The translations under genes were made by a program, and so were the position numbers. Below are positions 16,661-34,568 of a stretch of DNA of 58,379 bases, piece by piece; the stretch's first letter is position 1, and each line of letters opens with the position of its first letter. The notes below the pieces were generated by a model. The model saw nothing but the letters and a program-made list of their open reading frames with translations, did no database searches and was not told where the DNA came from. Origin of the DNA: Candidatus Omnitrophota bacterium (GTDB lineage Bacteria; Omnitrophota; Gorgyraeia; Zapsychrales; Fredricksoniimonadaceae); NCBI GenBank assembly GCA_903836515.1, contig CAILQW010000039.1, positions 1-58,379 of the forward strand. Direction: 5' to 3'.

Positions 16661-16711
16661 TTATCAAAATAATACTTGCTTTCCTGTGAAACATGGTTTA
16701 TATTTTGATAA
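16661..16711. promoter_or_regulatory. Inverted repeat around the T4SS operon promoter
   Basis: TTATCAAAATA (16661-16671) and TATTTTGATAA (16701-16711) are perfect 11-bp inverted arms with 29 bp between them. The right arm overlaps the putative -10 box and the left arm lies just upstream of the -35. The arms could be a repressor operator spanning the promoter or the stem of an RNA structure. Confidence 0.6.
16677..16704 (+). promoter_or_regulatory. Putative promoter of the T4SS/pilus operon
   Basis: TTGCTT (16677-16682), 16-bp spacer, TATATT (16699-16704). It is the only good promoter candidate before a run of more than 20 same-strand, mostly overlapping genes ending at 34544. Confidence 0.5.
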
Positions 16712-16753
16712 GAAATCAAACAATGGTTGATTTATGGACAAGGAATGGAAGGT

Positions 16754-17971
16754 ATGATCCAGGGCATTACTCCAATAGATACGGCATTCGACATGATGGG
16801 GCTTCATCAGGCCCAGGCGCTCACGCGGTTCATGTTCATTGAAACGCTGGCTGGGAAAGTTCTTTTTGGATTGGGTTTCATCCTGAGCCTGGTCAAGGGC
16901 TTGGAAAAAGGTAATTTTAAGCCGGTATTGATGTTCGTCTTTCTTTTCTTCTCTTTATGGTTTTTATGTGTGATGCCGCATGTCAGGGTAACGCCCCCTA
17001 TTTCTGCCATGGAACGTAACGGGTATAAGGATATTACGGCCGCCGACATATTAAAGAAGAGCGGTTACGCGGAGCTTGTGGTCAACCCGGTTGTGTATGG
17101 CGTGAGCCGGTGGATGGATGTGCTGGTGACAGGTGTGGTGGCTGTGATTGACCATGTGGGGAATGAAGGCCGCGGTTATTTGGCGAGTCCATTCTTGCGG
17201 GTCAAGGTGTCCATGATCACCAGCGCGATCGTGGCGCAAGGGATCACGGATCCAAAGCTCAGGGAAGATGCCGCGCGCTTTTATCAGCAGGATTATTGGG
17301 GCACGGTGCGCGGGCTGGGGGAGTCGGCACAGGGGGTGTGGCCTGGAGATCCCCGTGTCGTTGCCCTTTATAAGGAAGAGGCGCGGGCGCGCTGGAATAC
17401 CCTGCGCGACGCGCTTTATGCCTTCGCCAACCAGGACAAGATCTTCGACCGGACATTCGCGCGTTTCTACAACGGGAACATTAACAAGGATGGCGTGGTG
17501 AAGGCGTTATTGAATAGTGAGATGAAGATGCATTCACGGCTGTACACGCTTTTTACTTATGCATCACGGCGGGGAGATGAGAAGGTTCTGGGGAATGTAA
17601 CGGGTGTGATGCAGAAGGCGTCTCAACGCCTTATCCAGTTCCTTCCTTTAGCGCAGGGGCTGTGCCTTTTTCTTGGGTGGGCTTCATTTCCGATCTTTGT
17701 GGCGGCAGCGTTAATGTTTCAATCTTTCGGATATCTTGCGTTATGGATGGGATTGATCCTGTGTGTGAAGGGATGGTCGGTTGGCTGGGTGATTGTGGAG
17801 AAGAGCGCAGACCTCTGGTTCTTGCTGCAGGCATCGTGGGGCGGGGTTGAGTTGTGGCGCGCGCCCGTTGTCAATGACGGGACAGCCATTGCGGCGTTCA
17901 TGGTGCCGCTGGCCGGGATGGGAATATTTTTTATGGGGTTCATGCGGATGAAGGCGGGGCAGAAAGGATGA
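16754..17971 (+). CDS. TraG N-terminal-like inner-membrane protein, tentative
   Basis: 405 aa, first gene of the secretion operon. Several hydrophobic segments lie at the N-terminus (about 30-45 and 55-75, plus a third near 115-135) and two or three more near the C-terminus (about 295-350 and 375-395), flanking a large hydrophilic helical middle. Number and placement resemble the N-terminal region of TraG, the mating-pair stabilisation protein of F-type systems, but I see no decisive motif and much of TraG is absent. Start: ATG 16754 has AAGGA 9 nt upstream; ATG 16745 would add three residues, and the TTG at 16727 is unlikely. Confidence 0.5.
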   Translation: MIQGITPIDTAFDMMGLHQAQALTRFMFIETLAGKVLFGLGFILSLVKGLEKGNFKPVLMFVFLFFSLWFLCVMPHVRVTPPISAMERNGYKDITAADILKKSGYAELVVNPVVYGVSRWMDVLVTGVVAVIDHVGNEGRGYLASPFLRVKVSMITSAIVAQGITDPKLREDAARFYQQDYWGTVRGLGESAQGVWPGDPRVVALYKEEARARWNTLRDALYAFANQDKIFDRTFARFYNGNINKDGVVKALLNSEMKMHSRLYTLFTYASRRGDEKVLGNVTGVMQKASQRLIQFLPLAQGLCLFLGWASFPIFVAAALMFQSFGYLALWMGLILCVKGWSVGWVIVEKSADLWFLLQASWGGVELWRAPVVNDGTAIAAFMVPLAGMGIFFMGFMRMKAGQKG

Positions 17972-18020
17972 AACTCGAAGTAACATCAAGATGGGACAAG
18001 TTAACAGCAAGGAGAATGAG

Positions 18021-18311
18021 ATGAAGATTTTTAGGATAAGCGGGATTCTAACGATGATCGTGGTTGCGGCCACCAGGGCCTGGGCCCAGCAATCCGGGAT
18101 GGAAGATGAAACCAAGCAGCAGTTTGACAACCTGTCGAAATTCATTGTCACCGTCATGACCGGCCCTGTGGCCAAGATCATTGCCCTGGTGCTTCTTCTC
18201 GTCGGGATATGGAGAATAATTAACAAGGATTACGGGACGGCTGTTGGGTGTGTGATTGCCCTGTTGGCCCTTGTTTTCTTGCCGCAGATCCTTAACGTGT
18301 TTGGCCGGTGA
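18021..18311 (+). CDS. VirB2/TraA-like conjugative pilin
   Basis: 96 aa, with a signal peptide ending AWA before QQ (about residue 22) and two hydrophobic helices (about 45-60 and 67-90) separated by a short basic turn (RIINKDYG), the architecture of VirB2/TraA-type pilins. The start at ATG 18021 follows AAGGAG at 18009-18014. It stands directly before traL, where F-type loci place the pilin gene. The sequence itself is too variable for a firm call. Confidence 0.65.
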   Translation: MKIFRISGILTMIVVAATRAWAQQSGMEDETKQQFDNLSKFIVTVMTGPVAKIIALVLLLVGIWRIINKDYGTAVGCVIALLALVFLPQILNVFGR

Positions 18312-18314
18312 AAC

Positions 18315-18605
18315 ATGCGTCATTGTCCCAAGACCATAGATAAACCGTTATTGATCCTTGGATTGGAAGGCGAGGATATCGCTGTGTTGATGTTCTTTTT
18401 CGGTATCCCCGCGATCATGATCTCTCCGGCGATTCCTTTGGTGTTGATCTTTGTGGCCTGGCCTGCGCTTGTGGCATTCAAACGGGGCAAACCTGAAGGA
18501 TATGTCCTGCATGCCTTGTACCGAATGGGGATGCCATTATCTGGACTATTACCACCTGGGTCGGAAGGCAAGCGTTATTCACCTTACAGTCAGGAGATGT
18601 TGTGA
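18315..18605 (+). CDS. traL: TraL: T4SS inner-membrane subunit (VirB3-like)
   Basis: 96 aa with the TraL start pattern PKTIDKPLLILGLEGEDIAVLMFFF, two hydrophobic segments (about 22-50), and a positively charged loop (FKRGKPEGY) followed by an HALYRMG segment near the C-terminus. TraL is the F-type counterpart of VirB3, working next to the VirB4-type ATPase TraC. The stop overlaps the GTG start of traE (GTGA). Confidence 0.8.
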   Translation: MRHCPKTIDKPLLILGLEGEDIAVLMFFFGIPAIMISPAIPLVLIFVAWPALVAFKRGKPEGYVLHALYRMGMPLSGLLPPGSEGKRYSPYSQEML

Positions 18606-19225
18606 TTGAAGAACATCCCATAAGATCCAAAAGCTCTGTGTATTTTGAACGCTATGCCAAGGCGGAGCAACAGCGGACACTTCTGGTGGGTGTTGTTTAT
18701 GTGTTGGGCGCGGTATGTGTGGCATTTGCGATGGGGCTTATCAGCGTTGCGGTACGTCCGAAGCCCATTCATTATGTTTCAGCAGTTCCTGTTTCCGGGA
18801 TTTCTTATCCAGGCCAGGTGCCGGTCTCATCGGTGGTCAGTTTCACAGGGGCGTGGATCATGGACTGGATGAATTATACCCCTGATACGGCCCAAGGAGT
18901 TTATCAACGGGCTCTGCTCTTAGTTATGCCTTCGTTCATGGCCAAGCTTCGGGCGGGGTTGGATGAAGAGCTGCAAAAGATTTCACGCGACAGGCTGGCT
19001 TCGGTGTTCACCCTTAAGGCTGAACCGCGCTGCATGGAAAATGAGGGAGGGTTTGCGGTGATATTCGAGGGGGATCGCAGGATTTATATGGGGAAAGAAG
19101 AAATGTCACGGGAAGCTGTGCGGTTTACGGTGAATGTCCGCCGGACAACGCCGACAACGCTTAATCCTTATGGGCTTGCCGTGGAAGATGTCAGAAAAGA
19201 AAAGGTGAGGCATGATCAAGTTTAA
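18602..19225 (+). CDS. traE: TraE: T4SS periplasmic assembly factor (VirB8-like)
   Basis: 207 aa with a cytoplasmic N-terminus, one membrane segment (about 27-49) and a periplasmic domain. The pattern WMNYTPDTAQGVYQRALLLVMPS matches the conserved L-x-N-x-T-P region of TraE/VirB8 proteins. GTG start overlaps the traL stop. The end overlaps traK by 14 nt. Position between traL and traK is the canonical F-type order. Confidence 0.82.
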   Translation: MIEEHPIRSKSSVYFERYAKAEQQRTLLVGVVYVLGAVCVAFAMGLISVAVRPKPIHYVSAVPVSGISYPGQVPVSSVVSFTGAWIMDWMNYTPDTAQGVYQRALLLVMPSFMAKLRAGLDEELQKISRDRLASVFTLKAEPRCMENEGGFAVIFEGDRRIYMGKEEMSREAVRFTVNVRRTTPTTLNPYGLAVEDVRKEKVRHDQV

Positions 19226-19874
19226 TCACATTGTAACGGCGTGGATGATGGTTGTTCTTGGGGGGGCTTGTGCATCGGCAGAAAAGAATGTTTGTTCCGG
19301 AACGGATGTTCTTGTGCGGGTGGAAGTGGGGAAAATGGTCGACATTTACGTTGAGGAAGGGATCGCGGACCTGGTGCGTTCCGGAGATCCCTCGACGGTG
19401 AAGGTGGAACATACCTCCGGGCATATATTCCTGACGCCGCTTGCGGCTGCTCCGGCGGATATTACCATTCTTGACGCTGTCGGGCGTTCCCACAGGATCA
19501 AATATGTATTTGATCAGGGTGTGGATGAAAAAATTGTTGTCGGAGATTGTCGGGAGAAAGAAGCAGGAACGGACAAGGACCTGGTCATGAGTATGGTTCG
19601 GGATCTGATTCGAGGGCGTCAGCCTGAAGGATCAAGACGGCGAGAGGGAGGTCCGGTGATATTTGAGGATGCCCAGGTCCGGATGACCCTTGTGGTAATG
19701 CATGAATTGCCGAAGCTGGCGGGTTATGTAGTGACCGCCGAGAATTTGACCGATGGTCCTGCGGCTCTTCCACTGCAACGCATTGCCTATCCCGGGCTTT
19801 TGGCCGTTGCCGCGGATAAAGAAAGCCTAGAGGCCAGGGCACAAGCCAACGTTTATATGGTGGTGGCCCGATGA
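19212..19874 (+). CDS. traK: TraK: outer-membrane-complex subunit (VirB9-like)
   Basis: 220 aa with a signal peptide (about residues 1-23, ACASA). The N-terminal beta-rich domain (VEVGKMVDIYVEEGIADLV...HIFLTPLAAAPADITILD) is the TraK/secretin-like region, and the C-terminal half may contact TraB and TraV. It overlaps traE upstream and traB downstream. TraK, TraV and TraB together build the trans-envelope core. Confidence 0.8.
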   Translation: MIKFNHIVTAWMMVVLGGACASAEKNVCSGTDVLVRVEVGKMVDIYVEEGIADLVRSGDPSTVKVEHTSGHIFLTPLAAAPADITILDAVGRSHRIKYVFDQGVDEKIVVGDCREKEAGTDKDLVMSMVRDLIRGRQPEGSRRREGGPVIFEDAQVRMTLVVMHELPKLAGYVVTAENLTDGPAALPLQRIAYPGLLAVAADKESLEARAQANVYMVVAR

Positions 19875-21043
19875 ATGGATTGCAGAAGTTTTATCAGCCG
19901 TGGAAAGAGCGCTACCTTGCCCTGGATAAGCACAGCCGTTTAATGACAGCAGCGGCTGTTGTGGGGGCGGCCATAACAGCGGCCTGGCTTATGTTGCCTA
20001 AGGGGATGCCATCGGTGACAGGACCGGTAAAAGATACACATGCATCACAAGGGATGGCCAAGGCAGAGGCCGGATATTTTCTTGGCGAGGATGTTGATAA
20101 GAAGGCTTATGTTGAACGGCTGGAATCTCAATATTTTTCCGTTTCGGAAAAAAATCAGATCCTCCAGGGGAAGATCGATGATTTGGCGGGGAAAGTGAGT
20201 GAGATGGCCAGGACTCAGGGCGGGATTTCCGATAACCTTGGGGAACTCGAAAGGCGCATGGCTGATGTTGCCGCGAAATCAGCGGCAACGGCAGGCATTA
20301 ACGGTTTGAAACAGCAAAAACCTGTTATCAGCGCTTATCAGATGGATGTCATCAATATCGCGCCGGCCCTTGCAGGGGAGCGGGATGAAAATGTTGTGTA
20401 TTTACCGGCTGGCAGTTTTGTGAGCGGGACGTTGTTAACGGGTGTTTATGCCCCATCAGAAGCATCCAATCCTTTGCCGGTGCTTGTGCGTTTGAAGGAG
20501 GCTTTTTATGGGCCTAATGACACGCGCATACCTCTGGAGGGCGCTTTTGCTGTCGGGAAGGCATCGGGTGATCTCGTGAGCGAACGGGCCTTGGTACAGA
20601 TTTGCACCCTGTCCGCAGTGCTTCCCGGGGGGCAGGCTTTTGAGCATAAGGGGAATATCGGTTATTTGACAGATGCGTCGGGGCAGTTGGGATTAAAGGG
20701 ATTGATTGTTCATAACACCGGTGGGCAGCTGGCCATGTCATTTATGACAGGTTTTACAGGCGGGGCTTCTCAGGCGATGGCGGATGCTCAAACGACAACG
20801 GTGGTTAGCGATAGCGGTCGGATGGCCCGAAATGTGACGGGTAACCGCGCCAAAAATGCGGGGTTTCAGGGGCTGGCCCAGAGTGCGGCGCAAATGTCCA
20901 AGTATTACGAGGATCAATTGGGGCATATTGTACCGGCAGTGAAGGTTGACGCAGGGGTGGATGTGTATTTTATTATCCTGGAAGGAGTGGCGGTTTATGG
21001 GCTTAAGAAGAATAGCATTTCTCTTGTGCGTTACGCTGATTAG
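19871..21043 (+). CDS. traB: TraB: envelope-spanning core subunit (VirB10-like)
   Basis: 390 aa: short cytoplasmic tail, membrane helix about 22-40 (SRLMTAAAVVGAAITAAWLML), a long coiled coil about 72-135, then the TrbI-type barrel beginning at YLPAGSFVSGTLLTGVYAPS with PVLVRLKEAFYGPN. A glycine/alanine-rich stretch (AMSFMTGFTGGASQAMADAQ) is the outer-membrane antenna region seen in VirB10 proteins. Overlaps traK (ATGA) and, by 47 nt, traV. Confidence 0.88.
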   Translation: MNGLQKFYQPWKERYLALDKHSRLMTAAAVVGAAITAAWLMLPKGMPSVTGPVKDTHASQGMAKAEAGYFLGEDVDKKAYVERLESQYFSVSEKNQILQGKIDDLAGKVSEMARTQGGISDNLGELERRMADVAAKSAATAGINGLKQQKPVISAYQMDVINIAPALAGERDENVVYLPAGSFVSGTLLTGVYAPSEASNPLPVLVRLKEAFYGPNDTRIPLEGAFAVGKASGDLVSERALVQICTLSAVLPGGQAFEHKGNIGYLTDASGQLGLKGLIVHNTGGQLAMSFMTGFTGGASQAMADAQTTTVVSDSGRMARNVTGNRAKNAGFQGLAQSAAQMSKYYEDQLGHIVPAVKVDAGVDVYFIILEGVAVYGLKKNSISLVRYAD

Positions 21044-21401
21044 CGGCTGCGCCAGCGCAGGGCAGCACCGCGTTACGCGACGTCTGAATGATGACGCGCC
21101 ACGGACGTTGACGGAGATCTATCAGCAGTCCGGTGAAGGACGGATATCAGTGCCGCAAGGAAAAGTCCAGCTGCTTCCCGAGGCGGGTGATGTCAAGCCC
21201 TATTGGCCGGTCTATGAACCGCCCCGGATCATCAAGGTGTGGGTTCCGGCGCATGTTGACGATAACGATAAGGATATTATGGTCGCCGGCCACTGGGTGT
21301 TTGTTATGGTTGATGCGCCCCAGTGGTATATCCAACGGTATGGGCGAGAAAATGCTGGCGGGCATGCAGTACTTCCCGTATTGCCGCGGAAGGAAGAGTG
21401 A
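20997..21401 (+). CDS. traV: TraV: T4SS outer-membrane lipoprotein
   Basis: 134 aa with a lipoprotein signal, lipobox ISGC at about 15-18. The C-terminal segment RIIKVWVPAHVDDNDKDIMVAGHWVFVMVDAPQWY follows the conserved W-V-x-P-x-x-D...G-x-x-V-x-V pattern of TraV. Start ATG 20997 has AAGGAG 9 nt upstream and lies inside the end of traB. The stop overlaps the traC start (TGATG). TraV is short and poorly conserved, so the call leans on the lipobox, motif and position together. Confidence 0.8.
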   Translation: MGLRRIAFLLCVTLISGCASAGQHRVTRRLNDDAPRTLTEIYQQSGEGRISVPQGKVQLLPEAGDVKPYWPVYEPPRIIKVWVPAHVDDNDKDIMVAGHWVFVMVDAPQWYIQRYGRENAGGHAVLPVLPRKEE

Positions 21402-23845
21402 TGCTGACACGCGCCGGGATCCAGGACATGTTTAATGAAAAAAATTCACTGGTCGATCATTTGCCATATGCCGAAAACATTGACGAGGTGTTCCTGCATG
21501 TTGATGGCAGTACAGGGCGTGCGTGGGAATTGTCATTGTATGAATCCGAGGCCCTTGAAGGGGCGCGACTTGAGGAATTATCGAATATGATTGCGGGACT
21601 GTCGGGACGTTTTTTACCGGGAATAAGCGTACAGTTTATTCTTTTGTCAGACGGAGATATCACGCCGTTTCTGGACAAATACCGGGCTATGACATCCCAA
21701 CAGGTTGACAGGGCCACGGAGAGGATCATTGCCGGTAAGTTGCAGCATATTTTGGATAGCCGGGAAGGGTTTTTCAGGAATTCGGGAGAAAATTTTTATC
21801 CCAGACGCATGCGGCTTTTCATAACAGTCCGTTCTTTTCCAAAGTGGCCTGGGACAGGGAATGATCGGATGGCGTGGGATAAGATCAGAAATGATTTCAT
21901 GAAAGTTTGTGATGCGCTGGAAAGCCAGTTTCAGGCGTTGAAGCTGTCGTTTAAGGCGGTTGATAAAGACCTTCTGGCGGCATTGCTCTATCAGCTGTTA
22001 AACCCGCGGCGTTCCGGTATGGTGCCGCCGCCGCGTTTGAAGAATGATTTTATAAGGGAACAGGTCCTGTATAACGCTCCGGAAGTCTGCGGGAACGGAT
22101 TTATCCTCGACACTTGCCATACCAGGGTGTTGAGTCTTAAGGAACTTCCTCAAACGACGTGGCCCGGAATGTTTTCTGCCCGTGAGGGAATGTGTGATAG
22201 CCACAGGAATATGATGATCGTCATCAATTTCACGGTGCCTGATCAGAATACGGCACTCGAAAGGATCAAGTTTCAGAAAGCGATGGCTTTTTTACAGAGA
22301 AATTCGTCGCTGGGGGATATCAGTGAGGAGGCACTGCAAAAGAAAGAAGAATTGAGCGGGTTGATCACCCAAACATTTAAAAGCGGCAAGGCTGTGATAC
22401 AGGCACGGGTACATCTTATCCTGTGGGGCGTATCACCGGATGAATTGGAGCGTGCCTGTGACAACCTTATGGTGGATCTTCATCGGATGGGTGCTGAAGG
22501 CCTGAAAGAAGAGATCATTGCGCCGTCTCTCTTTTTGACGTGCCTGCCATTAAATTTTGACCATCGCCTTGAGCGATCAATCCGCAGGGAACGCAGGATC
22601 CTGTCGGATAATTTTGCAGACATGGCGCCATTTTATGGCGCTTGCCGCGGTACAGCGACGCCAGCCGCACTGTATTTAAACCGGCGCGGAGAACCTGTGG
22701 GGGTCGATTTCTTCGATTCCGAGACCAATCCTCACGGCATAGTGATCGGGGCTTCGGGGGCCGGGAAATCATTCTTGATCAACGATTTCATATATCAGAA
22801 CTATCGTTTAGGGGCGCATTTCTTTGTCCTCGACAAGGGGCATTCTTACCGCAAGACATGCGCGATATTAGGCGGCCAATATATTGATTTTGATCTTCAG
22901 GCGCCATTGACCATCAATCCATTTTTATGTGATCCTGGCAGCGAGAACCTGGCATTCCTTGTCGAAGTGCTTGCCTTTATGGCTTCCGGCGGTGATGAGC
23001 GAGACCGTTTGACGCGTGAAGAAAAAGGATTTCTTCAGAAGGCCGTGCTGGAGGCCTATAAAGTTGTTTCGAATCGTCAGGTTACATTGACGGATGTCGT
23101 GGGGATATTAAATGATGTCCACCGGGAAGATGCACTGGGGATGGGGCCGCGCATCGCCCTTCGGCTGGCGCCGTTTACCCAGAATGGGCCTTATGGAAAG
23201 TTCTTTGACGGTCAAAATCAATTTTCCGTGAACAGCCGTTTTACGGTTTTTGAACTTGCGAATCTTTCTGCCTATCCTGACCTGCAGTTGGTGGTGCTGT
23301 TAAACATCATGTTTTTTGTAACACAGTTCGTCGCCGATCCCGGTATGCGCTCCAAACGGAAATTCCTGTTGATCGACGAAGCGTGGCAGTTATTGAAGAT
23401 GGCCAATACGGGAGATTTTATCGCCAATGCGTTTAAAACATTCCGTAAATACCGCTGTGCGGCAGTGGCTGTGACCCAGGAGGTCGCTGATTTTCTACAA
23501 CAGAAAAGCGGGTTGGCGATCCTGGCGAATACAGCCAACAAGATATTCCTCAAGCAGGAAGTTTCTTTGATCGAACATTTGAAGAAAGAATTGTCGCTTT
23601 CTGATGAAGTTGCCGGGCTTTTACGATCTGTGCGCACGGTCAAGGGAAAGTACTCGGAAGCATTGGTTGTGACACCCTCATCGACCGGGGTTATCAGGCT
23701 TGTGCCGGACCCTTTTTTATATTGGGCGGCGACATCAGAGCCTCGCGATAATGCGTTTTTGGATGAAGAAAGAACGAGGGCCAAAGGAGATCTTCTTGAA
23801 GCCCTAAGTCGTTGTGCGGAAAAATATCCATACGGGGTCCGTTAA
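21401..23845 (+). CDS. traC: TraC: T4SS assembly ATPase (VirB4 family)
   Basis: An 814-aa ATPase that powers pilus and channel assembly at the inner membrane. Walker A GASGAGKSFL begins at residue 450; Walker B LLIDEAWQLL has Asp659-Glu660; the conserved FRKYRCAAVAVTQEVADFL and ANTANKIFLKQE follow. The N-terminal 440 residues match the TraC_F region. Start ATG 21401 overlaps the traV stop; the longer frame from 21323 runs through traV coding sequence and is rejected. Family length is about 800-880, so this is full-length. Confidence 0.93.
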   Translation: MLTRAGIQDMFNEKNSLVDHLPYAENIDEVFLHVDGSTGRAWELSLYESEALEGARLEELSNMIAGLSGRFLPGISVQFILLSDGDITPFLDKYRAMTSQQVDRATERIIAGKLQHILDSREGFFRNSGENFYPRRMRLFITVRSFPKWPGTGNDRMAWDKIRNDFMKVCDALESQFQALKLSFKAVDKDLLAALLYQLLNPRRSGMVPPPRLKNDFIREQVLYNAPEVCGNGFILDTCHTRVLSLKELPQTTWPGMFSAREGMCDSHRNMMIVINFTVPDQNTALERIKFQKAMAFLQRNSSLGDISEEALQKKEELSGLITQTFKSGKAVIQARVHLILWGVSPDELERACDNLMVDLHRMGAEGLKEEIIAPSLFLTCLPLNFDHRLERSIRRERRILSDNFADMAPFYGACRGTATPAALYLNRRGEPVGVDFFDSETNPHGIVIGASGAGKSFLINDFIYQNYRLGAHFFVLDKGHSYRKTCAILGGQYIDFDLQAPLTINPFLCDPGSENLAFLVEVLAFMASGGDERDRLTREEKGFLQKAVLEAYKVVSNRQVTLTDVVGILNDVHREDALGMGPRIALRLAPFTQNGPYGKFFDGQNQFSVNSRFTVFELANLSAYPDLQLVVLLNIMFFVTQFVADPGMRSKRKFLLIDEAWQLLKMANTGDFIANAFKTFRKYRCAAVAVTQEVADFLQQKSGLAILANTANKIFLKQEVSLIEHLKKELSLSDEVAGLLRSVRTVKGKYSEALVVTPSSTGVIRLVPDPFLYWAATSEPRDNAFLDEERTRAKGDLLEALSRCAEKYPYGVR

Positions 23846-23888
23846 TAAGGGCTTTGTTGTGATGCGGGGTAACAATAAGGAGAGGGGT

Positions 23889-26575: not shown

Positions 26576-27063
26576 TGAAGGTGATGATGATATTTTTCGG
26601 GATTGCTGTGATGCTGTCCGGATTTATATTAGGCCATGCATCCCGCATGCGTGTCGAGAAGAAAGAGGTGGTGCTTGATCATTTACGGCAAGATACGGTC
26701 CGTGTTAATGAAAAAATTGAAGCGTGTAAGGGGTTACCCCATGAATCGCCTCGTGATCTGATCCGGGAATATACGGGTTTTATTAACGATATTCATGCGA
26801 TGGGACGGGCAGAGGGAATGATGTGCGGGGTGATTGTCCCGGGGGTGATTCAAGGGGATGTGGCTCACAGCGCGGGCATTTCATCGTGGGATGGGGTGAG
26901 GCAGCTAAATGTTCAGGTTGTATGCCCGCTGGGGCGGGGGAAGGGCCTGCTTTCATTGTTGGATGTCTTTACCGATATCGAACGTAACGGTTCAGTCGTG
27001 ATCCGGGGAATGCATCAGGACAAGGATGTTCTTAGGGCTGAATTTCTTATTGTGGGACGTTAG
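26575..27063 (+). CDS. PilO/GspM-like inner-membrane protein
   Basis: 162 aa with an N-terminal membrane helix (about 2-20), a coiled-coil linker (about 25-50) and a compact domain ending in an alternating strand pattern (NVQVVCPLGRGKGLLSLLDVFTDIERNGSVVIRG), the PilO/GspM layout. The longer frame starting upstream inside the previous gene is not needed; ATG 26575 has AAAGGAA upstream. Likely partner of the preceding bitopic protein in the platform that links secretin and motor. Confidence 0.55.
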   Translation: MKVMMIFFGIAVMLSGFILGHASRMRVEKKEVVLDHLRQDTVRVNEKIEACKGLPHESPRDLIREYTGFINDIHAMGRAEGMMCGVIVPGVIQGDVAHSAGISSWDGVRQLNVQVVCPLGRGKGLLSLLDVFTDIERNGSVVIRGMHQDKDVLRAEFLIVGR

Positions 27064-27075: not shown

Positions 27076-27540
27076 ATGAAGAGGTGGCTAGGGCTGGTTT
27101 TTGGGATTTTCTTGATAATGCCGGGAGTGCAGGCAGAGGAAAAGGCTGTGGTGGTTGAGGGTACGGCGCTGGAAAAGCTGCGCGCACAGGTCGATATTGA
27201 ACGATCCAGAGAGCAGGAGCTTCAGTTATTGCAGTTGGATGTCGAGCGCCTGAAACTTGAACTTGAGAAAAAGAAGGCGGTTCTTGAGCTTGCCAGTCTT
27301 TCCGCAGGAGGAGAGGCCAGAAATGTTGGAGTTCAGCCAGGGACAGAATCGAGCCTTCATGTGCGGTATGTTTCTATTGTCGGTACGCGCAAGGAAGCTG
27401 TGATCGATGCTGACGGGGTTGAGGCGCACGTGAAAGAAGGGGATGTCTGGAGTGGAAGGATGGTCAGAAAGATTTCGGAAGCAGGGGTTGTTACGGCGGC
27501 TCAGGACGGGCAGGAAAATTTTTATCCGGTGAAGCGCTGA
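27076..27540 (+). CDS. PilP-like secreted pilus protein
   Basis: 154 aa with a signal peptide (about 1-20, GVQA), a coiled coil (about 30-72, rich in Leu/Glu/Lys) and a small beta domain (HVRYVSIVGTRKEAVIDADGVEAHVKEGDVWSGRMVRKIS...) that looks like the HR domain of PilP/GspC proteins, which bind the secretin. R64-type PilP has the same order of parts. Ribosome binding site TAGGAGGA is strong. Confidence 0.65.
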   Translation: MKRWLGLVFGIFLIMPGVQAEEKAVVVEGTALEKLRAQVDIERSREQELQLLQLDVERLKLELEKKKAVLELASLSAGGEARNVGVQPGTESSLHVRYVSIVGTRKEAVIDADGVEAHVKEGDVWSGRMVRKISEAGVVTAAQDGQENFYPVKR

Positions 27541-27553
27541 AAAGGGTCTATTG

Positions 27554-29170
27554 ATGAAACTGGAACAATTGGGTTCGTTATTGGTCAGGAAGGGTGCCAT
27601 TACACCAGGGGCGTTGTCGCTGGGGCTGGCTGTCCAGGCGTGTTCATGTGAAAGGCAGCGGCTGGGCCGGATTTTGCGGCAGTATGAACTTCTTCGGGAA
27701 GTTGAGTTGACGGCGGCATTGGCCGAGCAGTCCGGTTGGCCTGTTTTTGAAGGCAATGTCTGTGTGGATCATCAAGCGGCACACAGGCTCGGGCTTGATT
27801 TCTTGCGCGGGCATGCTGTTCTTCCTCAGGTAGATGCGCAGGGTGCGGTCTTTATTTTGACGGATCCCTACGATACCCGTGCGACGGATTATGTTGTGTC
27901 TGTGTTTGGTGCTGACGCAAGATTTTTTATCGGCGATACAGAGATTGTTACGCGTGTTATGGAGGATTTTCTTAAAGAGAGGTTGGACGGACATGCCCGC
28001 GAAGGTTCACGCGCGCCTGTTCAGGATGCGGCCGATGCGCTCTTGAATGAGGCGGTCGCCCTTGGGGCAACGGATATTCATATTGAACCTTCGGAAAACA
28101 CCGTGGATGTACGCTTTCGCCTGGATGGTGTTCTGAGGTTTCAGCGTTCATTCCCTTTGCAGGATCATGCCAGGGTTGTGAATGTTTTCTTTAACCGGGC
28201 TGAAATCAGCGCCGGGGATGCTTTAAGGCTTCACGATGCGCGGTTTGATCATGTGTATGGCAGCAGGAAGATGGATATCCGGCTTTCCCATTTACCTTCT
28301 GTCCATGGATCGTCGTTGGTCCTCAGGCTCCTTGACAAGACGCGGTCGGCCGTCCCGTTGGAAAGCCTGGGATACGCCCCGCAGCATTGTGGCGTCATTG
28401 AGCGTGCCGTACAAAGTCCCCACGGGATCGTGTTATTGACGGGGCCTACCGGATGCGGCAAAACCACAAGTCTTTATGCGATGCTTAACCATGTGAAACA
28501 TATGGGGACCAAGGTCGTGGCGGTGGAGGACCCTGTGGAGATCAAACTCCCTTTGGTGACCCAGGTTCCTGTTGATATCCGCAAAGGCCATGATTTTCAT
28601 CATCTGACCCGGGCTTTTCTTCGTCATGATCCTGATATTATTTTGATCGGAGAGATCCGTGACGAGAAGACCGCGAGTGAGGCTGTTCGTGCGGCCATCA
28701 CAGGGCACAAGGTCTTTTCAACGCTGCATACTAATGATGCGGTAAGTGCAATTTTGCGGCTGCGTGATCTGGGTGTAGATAACAGTTATATCGCCAGCAC
28801 ACTCAAGTGTGTTGTTTCCCAGAGGCTTGTCCGGAAGCTTTGCCTGCATTGCCGGGTCGAAGAGTTTGTCACAGCGGCCGCACTGCCTGAAATTGAGCGG
28901 GTATTTGTCAGCGGGCCAGGACAGATCATTCATCGGGCGGATCCGCGGGGATGCCCGCGTTGTTTTGACGGATATGCTGGACGAACAGTGGTGGCAGAAA
29001 CATTGTTTATCGACGATGACATACGTTTCATGATCGAGCAGGGTCTGGTAAATGAGATTTCCCTGAAAATAAAGGAAAAGCCGGGGGCTGTCACGATGCG
29101 TGCGGACGCCCGCCGGCTTGTCAGTGAAGGGATCATTGCACCCCAAGAGGCTGCAAGGGTGGTGGGATGA
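27554..29170 (+). CDS. Pilus assembly ATPase PilB/GspE family
   Basis: 538-aa hexameric motor for pilin polymerisation. N-terminal MshEN-type domain about 1-140; Walker A GPTGCGKTTS from residue 297; Asp box VVAVEDPVEIKL; Walker B IILIGEIRDEKTA; His box GHKVFSTLHTNDA; and a CLHC...CPRC zinc tetracysteine motif after the nucleotide domain. ATG 27554 has AAAGGG 8 nt upstream and is preferred over the TTG three bases earlier. No PilT-type retraction ATPase is in the window. Confidence 0.93.
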   Translation: MKLEQLGSLLVRKGAITPGALSLGLAVQACSCERQRLGRILRQYELLREVELTAALAEQSGWPVFEGNVCVDHQAAHRLGLDFLRGHAVLPQVDAQGAVFILTDPYDTRATDYVVSVFGADARFFIGDTEIVTRVMEDFLKERLDGHAREGSRAPVQDAADALLNEAVALGATDIHIEPSENTVDVRFRLDGVLRFQRSFPLQDHARVVNVFFNRAEISAGDALRLHDARFDHVYGSRKMDIRLSHLPSVHGSSLVLRLLDKTRSAVPLESLGYAPQHCGVIERAVQSPHGIVLLTGPTGCGKTTSLYAMLNHVKHMGTKVVAVEDPVEIKLPLVTQVPVDIRKGHDFHHLTRAFLRHDPDIILIGEIRDEKTASEAVRAAITGHKVFSTLHTNDAVSAILRLRDLGVDNSYIASTLKCVVSQRLVRKLCLHCRVEEFVTAAALPEIERVFVSGPGQIIHRADPRGCPRCFDGYAGRTVVAETLFIDDDIRFMIEQGLVNEISLKIKEKPGAVTMRADARRLVSEGIIAPQEAARVVG

Positions 29171-30366
29171 TGGCCTGGCGGTTTGTTGCGATTCATTCTT
29201 CCGGTCATGAGGTTGTGGGGGCCGAATGGGGGACGCGTGCTGATGTTCTGGCGCGCCTGGCCAAGCGGGGGCTGCATCTGGTGTCTTTGGAACCTGATGT
29301 CATTCTCGCGGTTCAAAGTCTGGCGTTCGGGGCTTCAATTCCCCCGGATCGTTTGACATTTTTTTTCAGGGATTTTTCAAACATGTTGGCGGCAGGCATC
29401 ACGCTGAACCACATGATGGGAACTTTGAAAGAGGCGATCCTTGACCCGCGTTTGTCGCGTGCGTGCGATGCGATCTCCTGCGAGCTTGCGGCGGGGCGTT
29501 CCTTGGCCGAAGCGATGGCGCAGACGCGTCAGTTTCCCCGTTTGGCGGTCAATGCCGTGAAGGCGGGAGAGCGTGCCGGGAATCTTCCTCTTGTCACAGG
29601 GCTTTTGGCCGATCATTTCGAGTTGTCGTCGAAATTGAAAGGTAAATGTCTGGAAGCGTTGATTTATCCGGCGTGTGTTGTATTTTTTCTGCTTGTGTCT
29701 CTGGTGTATGTGTCCCAGTCCGTTGTGCCTCAGCTGGCGCCGCTCTTGCCTGCGCAAGCCATGGATAGTCCTTTAACCAGGGTTATGCTGGCCTTGAGCG
29801 GCTGCGTGCGGCATGCGTGGATCATGATGGTGTTTATTGCCGGAGGGATCTTCGTCCTGGCAGGCGTCCTGATCCGGCGTTATCCCCGTGCGTGGTATGT
29901 CTGCCTGAGGCATATTCCAGGTATTGGCCATGTCAACAGGGATCTGGAGATCGGGTTGTGTTTTTTTGATATTTTCGTGCTCCTTCGCAGCGGCATTCCC
30001 CTGGATACGGCGCTGCGCGAGGCGGCATCTTCGGCTGGCAATCTGACGGGTGCAGAACTGGAACAATGTTGTCAGTATCTTGCGGGCGGGCATACATTTT
30101 CATCGGCCTTGGCCCAGGGGAAATATTTTCCGCGTCTTGTCGTGGAAACGATCAGGCTGGGAGAGGAAATGGGACGCTACGATGATTATTGCGAAAGGGT
30201 ATTTAAATTATATTACCGTTCTTTTGAAACGCGTGTCAGTGCGCTGGTGGGGGCGCTTCAGCCAGTGTTGCTGGGGGTGTGCGCGGTATTTGTTATTGCC
30301 ATGGCATTTGCTTTTTTGAAACCAATTTATGCGAACCTCACGCATATGGGTGTGTTAAAACCATAA
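29167..30366 (+). CDS. Pilus platform protein PilC/GspF family
   Basis: 399-aa inner-membrane protein that couples the ATPase to pilin extraction. It has the two repeated GspF domains: FFRDFSNMLAAGITL...LAAGRSLAEAM and FFDIFVLLRSGIPLDTAL...AGGHTFSSALAQ, each followed by membrane helices, and the C-terminal helix about 365-385. The start overlaps the pilB stop. Confidence 0.92.
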   Translation: MMAWRFVAIHSSGHEVVGAEWGTRADVLARLAKRGLHLVSLEPDVILAVQSLAFGASIPPDRLTFFFRDFSNMLAAGITLNHMMGTLKEAILDPRLSRACDAISCELAAGRSLAEAMAQTRQFPRLAVNAVKAGERAGNLPLVTGLLADHFELSSKLKGKCLEALIYPACVVFFLLVSLVYVSQSVVPQLAPLLPAQAMDSPLTRVMLALSGCVRHAWIMMVFIAGGIFVLAGVLIRRYPRAWYVCLRHIPGIGHVNRDLEIGLCFFDIFVLLRSGIPLDTALREAASSAGNLTGAELEQCCQYLAGGHTFSSALAQGKYFPRLVVETIRLGEEMGRYDDYCERVFKLYYRSFETRVSALVGALQPVLLGVCAVFVIAMAFAFLKPIYANLTHMGVLKP

Positions 30367-30381: not shown

Positions 30382-30828
30382 ATGAAAAAGATCATGCAAA
30401 AGAACAAGGGGTTTTCGTTGATGGAGCTGGCAATATCTGTCGGGCTGATAGCGGTCCTGGTCAGTGTGGTCGCGGCGGGCGGGGGGATGATGAACAAGTG
30501 CCGTCTTCAGCGTGAAGCGCAGGCAGTGGAGAGTTTGCGCCTGGCTTCCCAGAATTATCTTTCGGGGAAGAATCTGACGTATGCGGGGGTCAGTGTGGCG
30601 GCGTTAAAGAACGCCGGGCTTTTGCCTAATAATTTTGATCCGGCCCAGGCAAACAGTTTTGGCGGAGATTATACCGTGGCCGCCAATGAACAGGATAATA
30701 CGAAGGTGGATATCACATTGGCCAGTGTGCCGTCCTCGGCGGGGACAGAATTGAACGATGTGTTCAAATCCCGGGCTGATGCGATCAGTTATGATCAGAC
30801 AGGCAGGGTGTGGAAGGCGACGTTTTAA
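30382..30828 (+). CDS. Major prepilin, type IV
   Basis: 148 aa. Leader MKKIMQKNKG ends at the cleavage site G|FSLMELAIS with Glu at +5 and a 20-residue hydrophobic helix. The globular part is short and Ala/Asn-rich, like R64 PilS or other type IVb-like pilins. Strong ribosome binding site AAGGAGAG. It is the first of three consecutive pilin-type genes and the best candidate for the major subunit. A prepilin peptidase must be encoded elsewhere. Confidence 0.85.
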   Translation: MKKIMQKNKGFSLMELAISVGLIAVLVSVVAAGGGMMNKCRLQREAQAVESLRLASQNYLSGKNLTYAGVSVAALKNAGLLPNNFDPAQANSFGGDYTVAANEQDNTKVDITLASVPSSAGTELNDVFKSRADAISYDQTGRVWKATF

Positions 30829-31277
30829 TGGGACGTGCTGTAAGTTTATGGGAATTGTCTGTGGGTGTTGTGCTGGCTGTGGTGCTGGCAGGGGCGTTGG
30901 TGGTTTCAACCGGAAAACCGGTGGCCATGGCCCGCAGCCAGCGCACATGCGCAGATATGGAGTCTTTTCTTGCTGCCGGCCGGCAGTACGATGCGATGTA
31001 TGGGGTGTGGCCGTCCTCGTGGGGGGATATGGACAAGGTCCTGCCTCAAATGCCCCGGCAGAACCAATGGGGACGTCCGTATGTTTTTGGATCTGACCAG
31101 CGGCGTTTGTGGCTGGAAACAGATATCCCGGCGGGGTCGCTAACGGCCATGGCGGCAGGATATTCTCTGGTTGTCCAGCATGGAGGAACTTATGACCGTA
31201 TCCGCGTGTCTGTCAGTCGATTTTACGGCCAAGCCGCACGGCTTGTTTATGAGAAAAGGAATGCCCATGTACCTTAA
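30828..31277 (+). CDS. Minor pseudopilin with atypical leader
   Basis: 149 aa. A very short leader with A|VSLWELSVGV in place of the usual G|FTLIE, Glu at +5, then a hydrophobic helix. The globular part contains PSSWGDMDKVLPQMPRQNQWGRPYVF, a pattern common to minor pilins. ATG overlaps the previous stop (TAATG); the GTG at 30810 lies inside the preceding gene. It overlaps the next gene by 11 nt. Function as a minor pilin is inferred from helix and context. Confidence 0.65.
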   Translation: MGRAVSLWELSVGVVLAVVLAGALVVSTGKPVAMARSQRTCADMESFLAAGRQYDAMYGVWPSSWGDMDKVLPQMPRQNQWGRPYVFGSDQRRLWLETDIPAGSLTAMAAGYSLVVQHGGTYDRIRVSVSRFYGQAARLVYEKRNAHVP

Positions 31278-32154
31278 AAAAGGTTTTACGCTGATCGAAC
31301 TATCGCTGGTTCTTTTTATTGCCATGGTGATGGCCAGTGCGGTTGTGCCTAATTTTGTCCGTTCGTTACACATTGAAGCCGCACGCAAGACCGCCCTGGA
31401 GATGTCTCAAATCGCGGAAGCCGGTCGGGCCTACTATATTGAGCAGAAACAATGGCCTGACGGGATCGATGCCTTGCGCACGGCTGGTTTTATGGATAAT
31501 GCATGGGGAGGCAAAAATCCTTTTGGTGGACTTTATACTCTGGCGCGGACCGGGTCGTTGCTGGAGATCGCGACAACATTGCCCGGAGATATGGCCCAGG
31601 TTGCGGGGGTCTTGCTTCCGATGCCGGCTGTCAGCGGGACGCGGGTCAGTTTCTCCGTAACGCCGCCAGGAGCAGATGCCTTGCCTCAGACGGGAACGAT
31701 CGTGCCATGGCCGTCGGCGGTTATTCCCCAGGGCTGGCTGATCTGTGACGGACGTCCTGTTTCCCGTACAGATTACAAGAGCCTCTTTGCGGTGATAGGC
31801 ACAGTGTACGGGGCGGGGGATGGGGCGGGCACATTTAATTTGCCGGATCTTCGGGGTCGTACCGTTGTCGGGCTTGATAACATGGGTGGAGGCTCAGCCA
31901 ATGTAATAACGGATCTTGCGGGACGTACCTTGGGCGGAAAATTCGGCGAAGAAGCGCATCGGTTGACCGTTGCGGAAATGCCCTCCCATGCTCATGGATA
32001 TAACGAATCGCCCTGGTTTGGAGCCCGTTACGATGGCCATTCTTCGCCACTGCTGACGTCACAGCGGGCGGCCACAACATCTTCAGCGGGAGGAGATCTT
32101 GCTCATAATAATCTTCAGCCGTCGATGGGTTTGTATTGGATCGTAAAGTCCTGA
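31267..32154 (+). CDS. PilV-like minor pilin with phage tail-collar domain
   Basis: 295 aa. Prepilin leader MYLKKG|FTLIELSLVL (Glu +5) and a hydrophobic helix, then a pilin-like body to about 130. Residues about 138-200 form a phage tail-collar domain (PQGWLICDGRPVSRTDYKSLFAVIGTVYGAGDG, FNLPDLRGRTVVG), and the end NNLQPSMGLYWIVK is the usual close of collar fibre proteins. Plausibly the tip adhesin, in the role that PilV plays on R64 thin pili. ATG 31267 has AAAAGGA 6 nt upstream; ATG 31261 is the alternative. Confidence 0.88.
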   Translation: MYLKKGFTLIELSLVLFIAMVMASAVVPNFVRSLHIEAARKTALEMSQIAEAGRAYYIEQKQWPDGIDALRTAGFMDNAWGGKNPFGGLYTLARTGSLLEIATTLPGDMAQVAGVLLPMPAVSGTRVSFSVTPPGADALPQTGTIVPWPSAVIPQGWLICDGRPVSRTDYKSLFAVIGTVYGAGDGAGTFNLPDLRGRTVVGLDNMGGGSANVITDLAGRTLGGKFGEEAHRLTVAEMPSHAHGYNESPWFGARYDGHSSPLLTSQRAATTSSAGGDLAHNNLQPSMGLYWIVKS

Positions 32155-32155
32155 T

Positions 32156-33019
32156 ATGCGGGTATGGTTGATCGTTCTTATGCTGGTGATGTCCGCTGTA
32201 TCATCATGGGCTGAAGAAAGCATGGCAGCACTGGCTGCCCAGGCAGACTGGTCCTGTGTCCGTTTTCAGGTTATAGGGGTGTGTCGTCGCAATACACCGC
32301 CTTATGTGGGGGCCAAGGTGCGCTATTGGCAGCCTGTGTTGTTGGTGGAGACGACAAAGCGTTCAGGGCAATCGGGGATTGTGGAGTTAAAGGCCTTGGT
32401 GGCATCGTTGGCAGGCCAGAAACCCCTGGAGGCATCATGCGGTGCTGCGGGGCAGACGGATACGACAGCGCTTCAGATGAATGAGGCGCATGTATTCGGG
32501 TTTCCTCTTTCCGATGCGTTCTCGCTGATCGTCGAAGCCCCTTGTGAGGGGCCGCCGGATCTCAGCGGGATGGTGAGTTATTTGAGTGAACAGGATGAGG
32601 ATGAGTGGCGGCGTGCCCGTTTGGAGCAAAATAATCCGCTTTCTGTGATGACGGCTAAGACAGCGCCAGTATGCGATCGTTATGGCGCTTTGTTCCCGGG
32701 GATGTGCCTGGGAACGTGGGGGCCGCTCTATCCGCGCACAGGTTTTGTGATCCAGGCCAGTGCGCCGGTTGCTTCTGCGGTCAGCGCCTTTCGGGCTGTG
32801 GATATCGCGGCATTAAAGCCGCAAACGCCGCACCGCGTTATTTCGCCGGTGCTTTTCTGGCCGGACGTCCGTTATGACCGGATGCAGATGGTTGCACCGG
32901 TAAGGAAACAGTGCATGTCCGTGGGGGAAAATTCCATGTTCTGGGAGCGCGGGGCAGGCGCGCGTGACGGGAGGTACGTTTGGATCTATTGGCGAAAAAA
33001 AGAGTGTTGTTTGTTCTGA
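32156..33019 (+). CDS. TraU-family conjugation protein
   Basis: 287 aa with a signal peptide (about 1-20, SSWA). Several Cys residues and the pattern CVRFQVIGVCRR...KVRYWQPVLLVETTKRSG match the TraU region G-x-x-x-x-x-W-E-P-x-x-L-V-x-V; LGTWGPLYPRTGFV and the closing WIYWRKKECC also agree with TraU or the related integrating-element family. TraU proteins are periplasmic and needed for DNA transfer rather than pilus growth. The match returns the operon from pilus to conjugation functions. Confidence 0.72.
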   Translation: MRVWLIVLMLVMSAVSSWAEESMAALAAQADWSCVRFQVIGVCRRNTPPYVGAKVRYWQPVLLVETTKRSGQSGIVELKALVASLAGQKPLEASCGAAGQTDTTALQMNEAHVFGFPLSDAFSLIVEAPCEGPPDLSGMVSYLSEQDEDEWRRARLEQNNPLSVMTAKTAPVCDRYGALFPGMCLGTWGPLYPRTGFVIQASAPVASAVSAFRAVDIAALKPQTPHRVISPVLFWPDVRYDRMQMVAPVRKQCMSVGENSMFWERGAGARDGRYVWIYWRKKECCLF

Positions 33020-33291
33020 TCTTTGCAGCGGGTTTGTTTCCTTCTTGCGCGTGGGGAGATCTTTTCGGCCTTGACCGGATCAATTACTTTTCAATGAAGG
33101 CGTCCGGTAAACAAGACGTCGCGTTCACGGTTTCGTTATGGACAGAGAGGGGATATTCGCCGCCTTCCGTCGTAGAAGAATTTCTTGATGATCCCACGGA
33201 AGAAAAAGCCCGAAAGTACCTGGCTTGGCAGCGTGCGCGCTTGGAAAGGATTGCCATGGCCCAGGGCGTGCTGGAAAGAATACGCGAATGA
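32980..33291 (+). CDS. Small secreted protein of the T4SS operon, unknown
   Basis: 103 aa from a TTG at 32980 preceded by GGGAGGT. Signal peptide about 1-26 (SCAWG). The C-terminal half (VVEEFLDDPTEEKARKYLAWQRARLERIAMAQ) is a charged helix. It overlaps the TraU-like gene by 40 nt and the next gene by 4 nt. I recognise no family with confidence; similar short exported proteins accompany TraU-type genes in integrative elements. Confidence 0.6.
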   Translation: MDLLAKKRVLFVLIFAAGLFPSCAWGDLFGLDRINYFSMKASGKQDVAFTVSLWTERGYSPPSVVEEFLDDPTEEKARKYLAWQRARLERIAMAQGVLERIRE

Positions 33292-34544
33292 GGGGCGTTC
33301 CGGCACTTTTGTGGAGCCTGTCGTTGATGGCGTGGGGAACACCCGCGGCCATGGCGGATATTTTTGAACGTATCAGGCCGTCCGATACGGTGCTACGAGA
33401 GGTGTTGAGCGAGGATCGCGCCGATTTTTATTTTCAAACATCAGGACTTGATCGTCATGAGCAGGCACAACATCTTTCCGATGTGAAGGGCCTTGATCTT
33501 GATGGTATGACACGACCTAATGCCCTGCGTGATATGGATGCGGCCTTTGATAAATATTTGATCAAAGAACTTCGACAGGACAAGGATTACCGGGGGTATG
33601 TTTCGTTAAGGCATCCTTTATTACTGCTGGAGTATTCAAGTCCTGTCATGGCAGATATTCTTAAGCACTACACGGCAAAAGTTTATGCGCGGATTGCTAT
33701 TGAGGCATCGCGCCTGTCGGAGGTTGAGCGCGCGGCAGAGGGGCGGGTTGAGCGGTTGAGCCGCCAATCCGAGCGTGAATGCCTGCGCAGTAACCAGGCC
33801 TTGGGTCTGGTGGAAGCTATGCGTGTGTGCCAGAAAGCTCCCCGGCCGTTTGATGCCCTGACAGGTGTTGGGGGTGCCGTGTCTTTGTCAGACGGGAGAC
33901 GGCGGATTCACATTTTGGTTCAGGCTCTGGAACGTCTTGGCCTGGACAAGAAACATATTGACCGGGTTGTTGAAATTGCCGGCGATCAGGTGATTTCCGA
34001 CGACAGCTATCAGGATATTCTTCCCGCCGCTACATTTAACCAGAAATTTGATAGTGCTTTCGAGGTGCAGGCGCGGCGGTGGCGCGATGCGTTGGAGAAA
34101 TTTCAAAGTTCCGGCAGAACAACGGTCGCGGCGCTGGAAGAGCTGTCATGGCCCGGCGTACCGGTGACGGCGCGCACGTTGGCCGGGCTTGATCTGCTTG
34201 ATGGTGCATCGCGGCAGATCGCGCTGTTGAAACTGGCGGATGCGGGCGCATTGGCCGCGGTGGAGGGGCTCTACCGGCAGGCAGGGGAGTATTTGGGTTA
34301 TTGTCTCTTGGATCCTGCCTTATCGCAGGAGTTCAAGGCGATCGTGCTCGAGAAGAAGCAGGGGGTGGAAAATATCCTGGCCGCCGCGAAGTCAGGGCGG
34401 CAGGATGCTGGGGCTTATAAGGAGCTTTTAGCCGCACTGGCCGAACACGCCGACATAGCGCGGAAGGATCTGGCGGCGCGCACCGCTGACGGGGCAGAGC
34501 AAGCGGGAGTAACGGAAGTTAAAGAGATGCTGTTGAATTTTTAA
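33288..34544 (+). CDS. Exported helical protein, last gene of the T4SS operon
   Basis: 418 aa from ATG 33288, overlapping the previous stop (ATGA). Signal peptide about 1-24 (PAAMA). The mature protein is predominantly helical, with two Cys (ERECLRSNQALGLVEAMRVCQKA) and heptad-like C-terminal helices; no membrane segment after the signal. Its position after a TraU-like gene suggests a TraH- or ICE-type periplasmic transfer protein, but the sequence does not let me decide. The track-length frame starting 63 nt earlier lies inside the preceding gene and is rejected. Confidence 0.6.
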   Translation: MRGVPALLWSLSLMAWGTPAAMADIFERIRPSDTVLREVLSEDRADFYFQTSGLDRHEQAQHLSDVKGLDLDGMTRPNALRDMDAAFDKYLIKELRQDKDYRGYVSLRHPLLLLEYSSPVMADILKHYTAKVYARIAIEASRLSEVERAAEGRVERLSRQSERECLRSNQALGLVEAMRVCQKAPRPFDALTGVGGAVSLSDGRRRIHILVQALERLGLDKKHIDRVVEIAGDQVISDDSYQDILPAATFNQKFDSAFEVQARRWRDALEKFQSSGRTTVAALEELSWPGVPVTARTLAGLDLLDGASRQIALLKLADAGALAAVEGLYRQAGEYLGYCLLDPALSQEFKAIVLEKKQGVENILAAAKSGRQDAGAYKELLAALAEHADIARKDLAARTADGAEQAGVTEVKEMLLNF

Positions 34545-34548
34545 GGCC

Positions 34549-34568
34549 CAACCTCCGGGGTTGATTTT
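34549..34568 (+). terminator. Weak possible terminator of the T4SS operon
   Basis: CAACC (34549-34553) pairs with GGTTG (34559-34563) and is followed by ATTTT. The stem is only 5 bp and the site overlaps the tat promoter region, so termination here is doubtful. Confidence 0.3.

Follow-up and report, generated by a model that had tools for sequence, protein, structure and literature searches.

A type IV secretion core and a type IVb-like pilus encoded within one chromosomal operon in Omnitrophota

The window analysed here is a 58,379-nt stretch, contig C39 (CAILQW010000039.1), of a Candidatus Omnitrophota metagenome-assembled genome (MAG) of 2.02 Mb and 96% completeness, which was queried with profiles family by family. 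At positions 16727-34544 it contains 20 co-directional genes on the + strand, most of which overlap and whose largest gaps are about 20 bp, and which place a type IV secretion system (T4SS) core and a type IVb-like pilus within one operon. The gene order is TraG_N-like, VirB2-like pilin, TraL, E, K, B, V and C, then the pilus block (secretin, PilO-like protein, small membrane protein, PilP, PilQ, PilR, PilS, pseudopilin and a pilin with a phage tail-collar domain), then TraU, a truncated TraF (TraF') and TraH (Table 1). It is moderately probable, judging from gene content and from relatives, that the operon encodes a composite conjugation machine with an integrated pilus that has been domesticated into a chromosomal apparatus for contact-dependent attachment and export, a function that we infer. 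Pairings of a T4SS with a type IV pilus are already known from PAPI-1 and IncI; here several families of an uncultured phylum have the two in one operon, and the system differs from those pairings in that the pilus lies inside the operon, TraC is F-type, the tip is a collar domain and one branch is chromosomal and has no coupling protein.

The TraL-E-K-B-V-C core proposed in a first-pass annotation of the window is borne out, as Pfam and NCBIfam profiles match L, E, K, B and C, and TraV is recognised through its orthologue in genome G091. The core that characterises F-type mating-pair formation (MPF_F), a TraC-type VirB4 ATPase with TraL, E, K, B and V, is present in full; the Walker A motif of TraC (GASGAGKS) is intact and TraB is the sole TrbI-family match in the genome. 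From the MPF_F pilus and mating-pair set, TraU and TraH are present, TraF is represented by its N-terminal half, a TraW-like gene occurs only in the mobile relatives described below and TraN was not seen. The continuous run of Tra and Pil genes stands as first drawn, with altered ends: TraU is not the last gene, being followed by TraF' and TraH, and the 5' end gains the TraG_N-like protein and the VirB2-like pilin. The family profile of the TraG_N-like protein matches the G127 orthologue (3e-83), which itself matches PF07916 TraG_N (2.8e-14), as well as the TraG_N of a Planctomycetota locus, L102 (3e-21). That of TraF' matches residues 2-111 of TraF in G127, G091, G248, G182 and G108 (2e-26 to 2e-23; PF13728 in G127), and the truncation is found in 13 of 13 compared members of the window's family. 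The G127 orthologue of TraH matches PF06122 TraH (3.1e-13) and TIGR03755 (1.3e-13).

The label ‘F-type’, also taken from the first reading of the window, is apt for TraC but a simplification for the T4SS as a whole, which is best described as F/GI-type (GI, genomic island): window-type TraU and TraH and their orthologues score best with models from GI-type integrative and conjugative elements (ICEs; TIGR03756 and TIGR03755), and the curated F-type equivalog cut-offs are not reached by TraC (392 bits vs 567) or TraE (30 vs 109).

The presence of pilus genes inside the T4SS operon is confirmed by profile matches for the secretin, PilQ, PilR, PilS and the collar pilin between TraC and TraU. The components expected of a type IVb pilus, namely an assembly ATPase, a platform protein, a secretin and pilins with class III leaders, are all found, the leader of the pseudopilin being non-canonical. 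The secretin scores higher as MshL (214 bits) than as PilN (138), each below its cut-off, and in several relatives the counterpart of its N-terminal part is a lipoprotein with a gene of its own. The AlphaFold2 model of the PilO-like protein (predicted local distance difference test, pLDDT, 83) has an actin-like cytosolic domain, a long membrane helix and a periplasmic domain, and matches actin-like folds including PilM (5eou) with E 5e-5 at a low template-modelling score of 0.32; no plasmid relatives of its gene were found. Among the scanned genes of the window (a few short open reading frames (ORFs) were left out) there is, as first stated, no relaxase, coupling protein or prepilin peptidase; a prepilin peptidase is encoded elsewhere in the same genome, on contig C6.

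Table 1. Genes of the operon, with positions in the window and basis of assignment
Product	Position	Strand	Basis
TraG_N-like inner-membrane protein, 414 aa	16727..17971	+	by orthologues; own Pfam match none
VirB2/TrbC-like T4SS pilin (TraA)	17991..18311	+	PF04956 3.3e-6, 27.7 bits vs cut-off 27.9
TraL	18315..18605	+	PF07178 1.6e-7
TraE (VirB8-like)	18602..19225	+	PF05309 5e-10
TraK (VirB9-like)	19212..19874	+	PF23536 TraK_C 3.1e-6
TraB (VirB10-like)	19871..21043	+	PF03743 (TraB/TrbI) 6e-21
TraV lipoprotein	20997..21401	+	G091 orthologue above PF09676 cut-off; lipobox LISGC
TraC (VirB4) ATPase	21401..23845	+	PF11130 2.8e-24, PF19044, NCBIfam TraC-F 3.7e-117
Secretin, MshL/PilN-like	23814..25475	+	PF00263 1.5e-36; MshL TIGR02519 1.8e-63; PilN-R64 TIGR02520 2.6e-40
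PilO-like platform protein (GspL/PilM-PilN type)	25478..26575	+	AlphaFold2 model; no Pfam match
Small bitopic protein, PilO/GspM position	26575..27063	+	position, conserved in at least 12 genomes; no family match
PilP-like periplasmic protein	27076..27540	+	TIGR03021 only 0.052; position conserved; orthologue weakly T2SSB 0.003
PilQ (PilB/GspE-type) pilus assembly ATPase	27551..29170	+	PF00437 9.4e-99; Walker A GPTGCGKT
PilR (PilC/GspF) platform protein	29167..30366	+	PF00482 1.6e-37
PilS-like major pilin	30382..30828	+	PF08805 3.5e-5 (above its cut-off), PF07963 5.1e-5
Second pilin-like protein (pseudopilin), non-canonical leader	30828..31277	+	homologues in relatives; no family match
Minor pilin fused to phage tail-collar/receptor-binding tip (PilV position)	31261..32154	+	PF07963 + PF07484 4.5e-25
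TraU	32156..33019	+	PF06834 1.1e-30
TraF N-terminal half, without thioredoxin domain	32980..33291	+	family profile vs TraF of mobile relatives
TraH	33288..34544	+	family profile matches G127 protein 1e-83

A division of the block into two unrelated operons by an internal promoter and terminator was considered and found no support in a consensus scan, where the counts of 19 and 25 sites were no excess over the 16 and 23.5 of shuffled sequence. Gene order is also kept in relatives. In the window's family, TraU is found in 14 of 32 genomes and a TraC orthologue in 18, including all 14 with TraU; both are absent from the 23 genomes of the order's other families (0/23 each). TraC identity is 50-67% across genera. 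The full operon is colinear in G016 and near-complete in G008; in G010 and G009 its order is conserved over the part that their contigs cover. In G004 and G002, which belong to one genus, it is broken near PilP/PilQ, and in G022, G028 and G025, of another genus, it occupies two loci, traG-A-L-E-K-B-V-C-secretin-pilO together with traH (locus A) and pilins-TraU-TraF'-PilP-PilQ-PilR (locus B). Both halves are retained after splitting, and the secretin and PilO genes remain with TraC and the pilins with TraU, so that the break never parts Tra from Pil. Trees of the concatenated Tra and Pil proteins from 14 genomes have 7 of 11 splits in common, including every split with a Shimodaira-Hasegawa-like approximate likelihood ratio test (SH-aLRT) value of 100 in both, with one strong conflict, a grouping of G010 with the G022 group (SH-aLRT 99) in the Pil tree only. 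That the Tra and Pil genes behave as one evolutionary unit is supported by these comparisons.

It is rather unlikely that two machines are merely co-transcribed, an attachment pilus and a T4SS for some other task, not joined to one another, as with the IncI thin pilus and its Dot/Icm-like T4SS. IncI plasmids can do without the pilus on solid surfaces (PMC9045228, PMC12857230) and each part of the present system has an outer-membrane portal of its own, the secretin on one side and TraK/TraB/TraV on the other; the split loci, however, are not divided by machine. The single envelope machine for attachment and transfer that was first proposed would agree with one operon, conserved synteny and largely agreeing trees, and none of the three results named at the outset as refuting it was found.

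Some relatives carry further genes within or beside the operon. By eye from the sequence, G008 has HipA-like and helix-turn-helix (HTH) genes that separate pilS from the collar pilin (L040:9170-10570), and G010 has a nuclease-like gene that separates pilR from pilS (L028:10978-12030). In G010 an open ORF of at least 4384 aa (L028:16847 into L029), with a possible peptidase-like N-terminal region, directly follows TraH; giant ORFs are a known Omnitrophota trait. A block upstream of the locus in G025 was rejected as a second secretion system, as it consists mainly of housekeeping genes.

The last pilin gene of the block encodes a class III pilin N-terminus joined to a tail-fibre-like region, and TraU lies immediately 3' of it wherever both are in view in the relatives' loci. 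Profile matches in the PDB include the T4 gp12 short tail fibre (4e-10; tail fibres overall 3e-10 to 2e-9) and pilins, and a plasmid search returned tail-fibre-type matches only, to the C-terminal half. Since the structure model is middling (pLDDT 71, predicted template-modelling score 0.43), domain assignments alone were used. Across 14 orthologues mean pairwise identity is highest in the Collar segment (56%) and lowest in the loop that follows it (27%), the pattern expected of a receptor-binding tip, which the protein may carry. The loop (window 31990-32094 and its orthologues) occurs in several distinct forms, among them YDGHSSP and PNNxQGPD, whose distribution departs from the tree, as in G022 compared with G028 and G025, and tips may possibly have been exchanged between collar pilins. 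In the IncI2 plasmid TP114 (PMC9045228) and in PAPI-1 (PMC5297154) it is the tip pilin that decides the recipient or makes contact with it. The present fusion, of a pilin with a receptor-binding tip of the phage tail-fibre kind, offers a targeting part that can be put to the test.

The surroundings of the operon are those of an ordinary chromosomal region, as the first-pass annotation had held. The 3' neighbours tatC, hemN, an isoprenyl synthase and purB-C-L also follow the operon in G016, and tatC and hemN the 3' half in G004; phosphoglucose isomerase (PGI) and a tRNA methyltransferase precede the Tra half in G002, as they do the operon in the window. These conserved neighbours suggest that the operon has long been in the chromosome and has been inherited vertically. 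A recently inserted ICE is ruled out, as no repeats flank the block, no tRNA gene adjoins it and the neighbours are common to relatives; neither a relaxase nor attachment sites were found at the locus. As to features of GI-type ICEs, there is no PF07514 match, no integrase among the scanned genes of the window and no boundary repeats, and the sole tRNA gene is at 557-723. The G+C content of the block (0.49-0.54) is below that of the flanks (roughly 0.50-0.60), which would fit an ancient foreign origin. That the operon is a functionless, decaying remnant of an integrated element is hardly credible: the low G+C and the missing TraD and relaxase genes could be taken that way, but the core frames are all open, TraC is conserved across genera and the genes have been kept after splitting.

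Three relaxase families and Replic_Relax (PF03432, PF07514, PF08751 and PF13814) have no match in the window's genome, and no coupling protein was found there with PF10412 or with the TraD of G127. Matches to PF10412 on contigs C27 and C50 coincide with T2SSE and were discarded as fragments of type II secretion system (T2SS)-type ATPases rather than a hidden coupling protein. This lineage might still conjugate, for example to move other elements, if its coupling protein and relaxase were divergent or acted in trans, which would agree with a complete and conserved Tra core and with mobile versions that presumably conjugate. Continued conjugation is nevertheless unlikely, as 11 of the 14 TraU-bearing family genomes have no TraD orthologue, the remote matches in the other three (G008, G009 and G026) are weak, with those of G008 and G026 on contigs of a second, unrelated T4SS, and the window's genome has no match to the four relaxase-related families.

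In other Omnitrophota families the operon has a different setting. A scan of the phylum with the family TraU profile found 19 of 384 genomes, seven of them outside the window's family and all of the same class, and five of the seven were read; among named genomes the best TraU matches are, bar one, Candidatus Omnitrophota (or Omnitrophota-type) MAGs. In G091, G127 and G108 the operon has a MobC/Replic_Relax-family protein and a TraD-type coupling protein (~750-790 aa) near its start; G182 and G248 show the 3' part, their contigs beginning inside the operon. These operons encode full-length TraF with the thioredoxin domain, preceded by a TraW-like protein, and restriction-modification genes lie 3' of the operon in G127 and G108. 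Although G182 and G091 belong to different families, they are 74-94% identical across the operon, which suggests recent transfer. Gene content and identity indicate that the form with TraD and MobC is probably a conjugative element, and the occurrence of the same operon with these genes implies that it began as, or is shared with, a conjugation system. The non-mobile setting initially described is accurate for the window and does not extend to these families. Side by side, the mobile form with a coupling protein and the chromosomal form without one make a natural comparison for the contribution of a pilus to a T4SS and for the path to a chromosomal contact device.

Also 3' of the operon in G127 (L158:18897 to L159:3077) are SpoVG, DUF6876, ThiF and JAB-domain genes, resembling the PRTRC cassettes of plasmids and ICEs; the set is common to G127 and G091 and partly shared by G182 and G248. 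The second, unrelated T4SS type (TraC 25-28% identical) is found in Omnitrophota on contigs G008:C5, G026:C113, G026:C143, G039:C5, G021:C47, G054:C326 and G053:C31, with coupling-protein-like matches on the same contigs.

The operon would have originated in a conjugative element, serving as its transfer machine, and would have been domesticated in the window's family, where TraD, MobC/Replic_Relax, the TraW-like protein and the half of TraF with the thioredoxin domain would have been lost. In the domesticated apparatus PilQ and PilR would polymerise PilS through the secretin, and the collar-domain pilin at the pilus tip would bind the surface of a target cell, like PilV of IncI and PAPI-1 or a phage tail fibre. 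The TraG-A-L-E-K-B-V-C/TraU-F-H apparatus would then act at the contact site. Because there is no coupling protein, the likeliest cargo, by analogy with Ptl (PMC12857230), would be periplasmic proteins exported in two steps, as in Ptl and partly in Brucella VirB, rather than a relaxase-DNA complex. A bolder version, possible though doubtful, is a physically fused translocator with one path for both parts, in which cargo passes from the inner-membrane engine of the T4SS into a channel that the secretin or the type IV pilus completes; with a tip derived from phage tail fibres, it would serve Omnitrophota for gripping other cells and injecting into them. Hypothetically, the lifestyle may be predatory or host-dependent, as first suggested.

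Several points weigh against domestication into a single export machine. That the parts form one physical machine is deduced from gene linkage, and shared species history alone could also produce the agreement of the Tra and Pil trees. Rooting does not prove the mobile form to be ancestral, as the order of three clades is not settled by the tree. Four family genomes have TraC and no TraU match, likely through assembly gaps. With four relaxase-related families searched in a MAG that is 96% complete, a divergent relaxase or coupling protein could have been overlooked.

Chromosomal T4SS cores without a coupling protein are known in Ptl, Brucella VirB, Helicobacter ComB and Bartonella Trw (PMC12857230), which differ from the present system in being VirB-type. 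A DNA-uptake machine, in which the pilus and a T4SS without coupling protein import DNA as ComB does, is distinctly unlikely here. ComB likewise lacks VirD4 (PMC12857230), and DNA uptake by type IV pili is widespread among bacteria. Import is nonetheless at odds with the export and mating-pair proteins TraU, TraF and TraH kept here, and the TraD of mobile relatives of the same operon points to export. To our knowledge TraU, TraF and TraH are not part of ComB, and we know of no type IVb pilus in the operon of any of the four VirB-type systems. An adhesive-only device, its T4SS part serving pilus display without transport as in Bartonella Trw, is very improbable: the absent coupling protein and a tip loop that is the most variable part would suit it, yet TraC is long and conserved with its Walker A intact, and none of TraB, E, K, V, U and H has been lost.

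The closest known systems combine the same kinds of parts in other ways. PAPI-1 and other GI-type (MPF_G) elements of Pseudomonas resemble the window in combining a type IVb pilus with an F-related T4SS for a single transfer process; PAPI-1 transfer requires the pilus, and PilV2 binds lipopolysaccharide (PMC5297154). PAPI-1 differs in that its pilus genes form a separate 10-gene cluster, whereas the window has them within the T4SS operon, with a TraC of F-type and with neither TraD nor a detectable relaxase. The annotated GI-type plasmid pUM505 has an MPF operon without pil genes between the ATPase and TraU, which agrees, as does the literature (PMC12857230), with the first-pass statement that pil genes of PAPI-1 and IncI are a separate block. 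PAPI-1 has been proposed as a possible chimera in which VirB4/VirD4 and a type IV pilus deliver DNA, the gene sets being apart there (PMC12857230). IncI plasmids (R64, TP114) share the type IVb pilus, with a major pilin PilS and a tip adhesin PilV that selects recipients (PMC9045228), and differ in an unrelated I-type T4SS and two gene clusters, whereas in the window no shufflon was seen and the tip is a tail-collar domain. The F plasmid and other MPF_F systems share TraA, L, E, K, B, V, C, U, F, H and TraG_N-like proteins; the F plasmid differs from the window, where a type IVb-like block lies between TraC and TraU, TraF is truncated and TraD, TraI and TraW are undetected.

The closest relative found outside Omnitrophota is the T4SS locus L102 of a Planctomycetota MAG (family profiles: TraB 3e-62, TraC 2e-210, TraU 8e-34), in which the order is TraC-small genes-TraU-TraF-TraG_N, with no pil genes between TraC and TraU. 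This pilus-free arrangement suggests that an Omnitrophota lineage gained the pilus block by insertion between TraC and TraU. The same hybrid was not found outside Omnitrophota in the other TraU loci read, a Thermovibrio plasmid or the pUM505 MPF operon, in a TraU-motif search that could miss other hybrids, and a literature search confined to open-licence papers found no earlier description of it. In the main genome survey of Omnitrophota, T4a and Tad pili are described along with symbiotic traits, its main text being without mention of T4SS, TraU or conjugation, and its lifestyle arguments rest on other genes (PMC10066038).

Immediately upstream of the operon, at 15890-16490 of the window, lies a pair encoding a RelE-like toxin and an HTH antitoxin. 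Two large putatively secreted proteins (13429-15753 and 38725-40863) have a common conserved N-terminal region of ~480 aa and variable C-termini, and match no Pfam family. Their relatives adjoin hybrid loci in seven other genomes (G001, G004, G007, G009, G014, G017 and G028), and they are possible exported partners, though not locus-specific.

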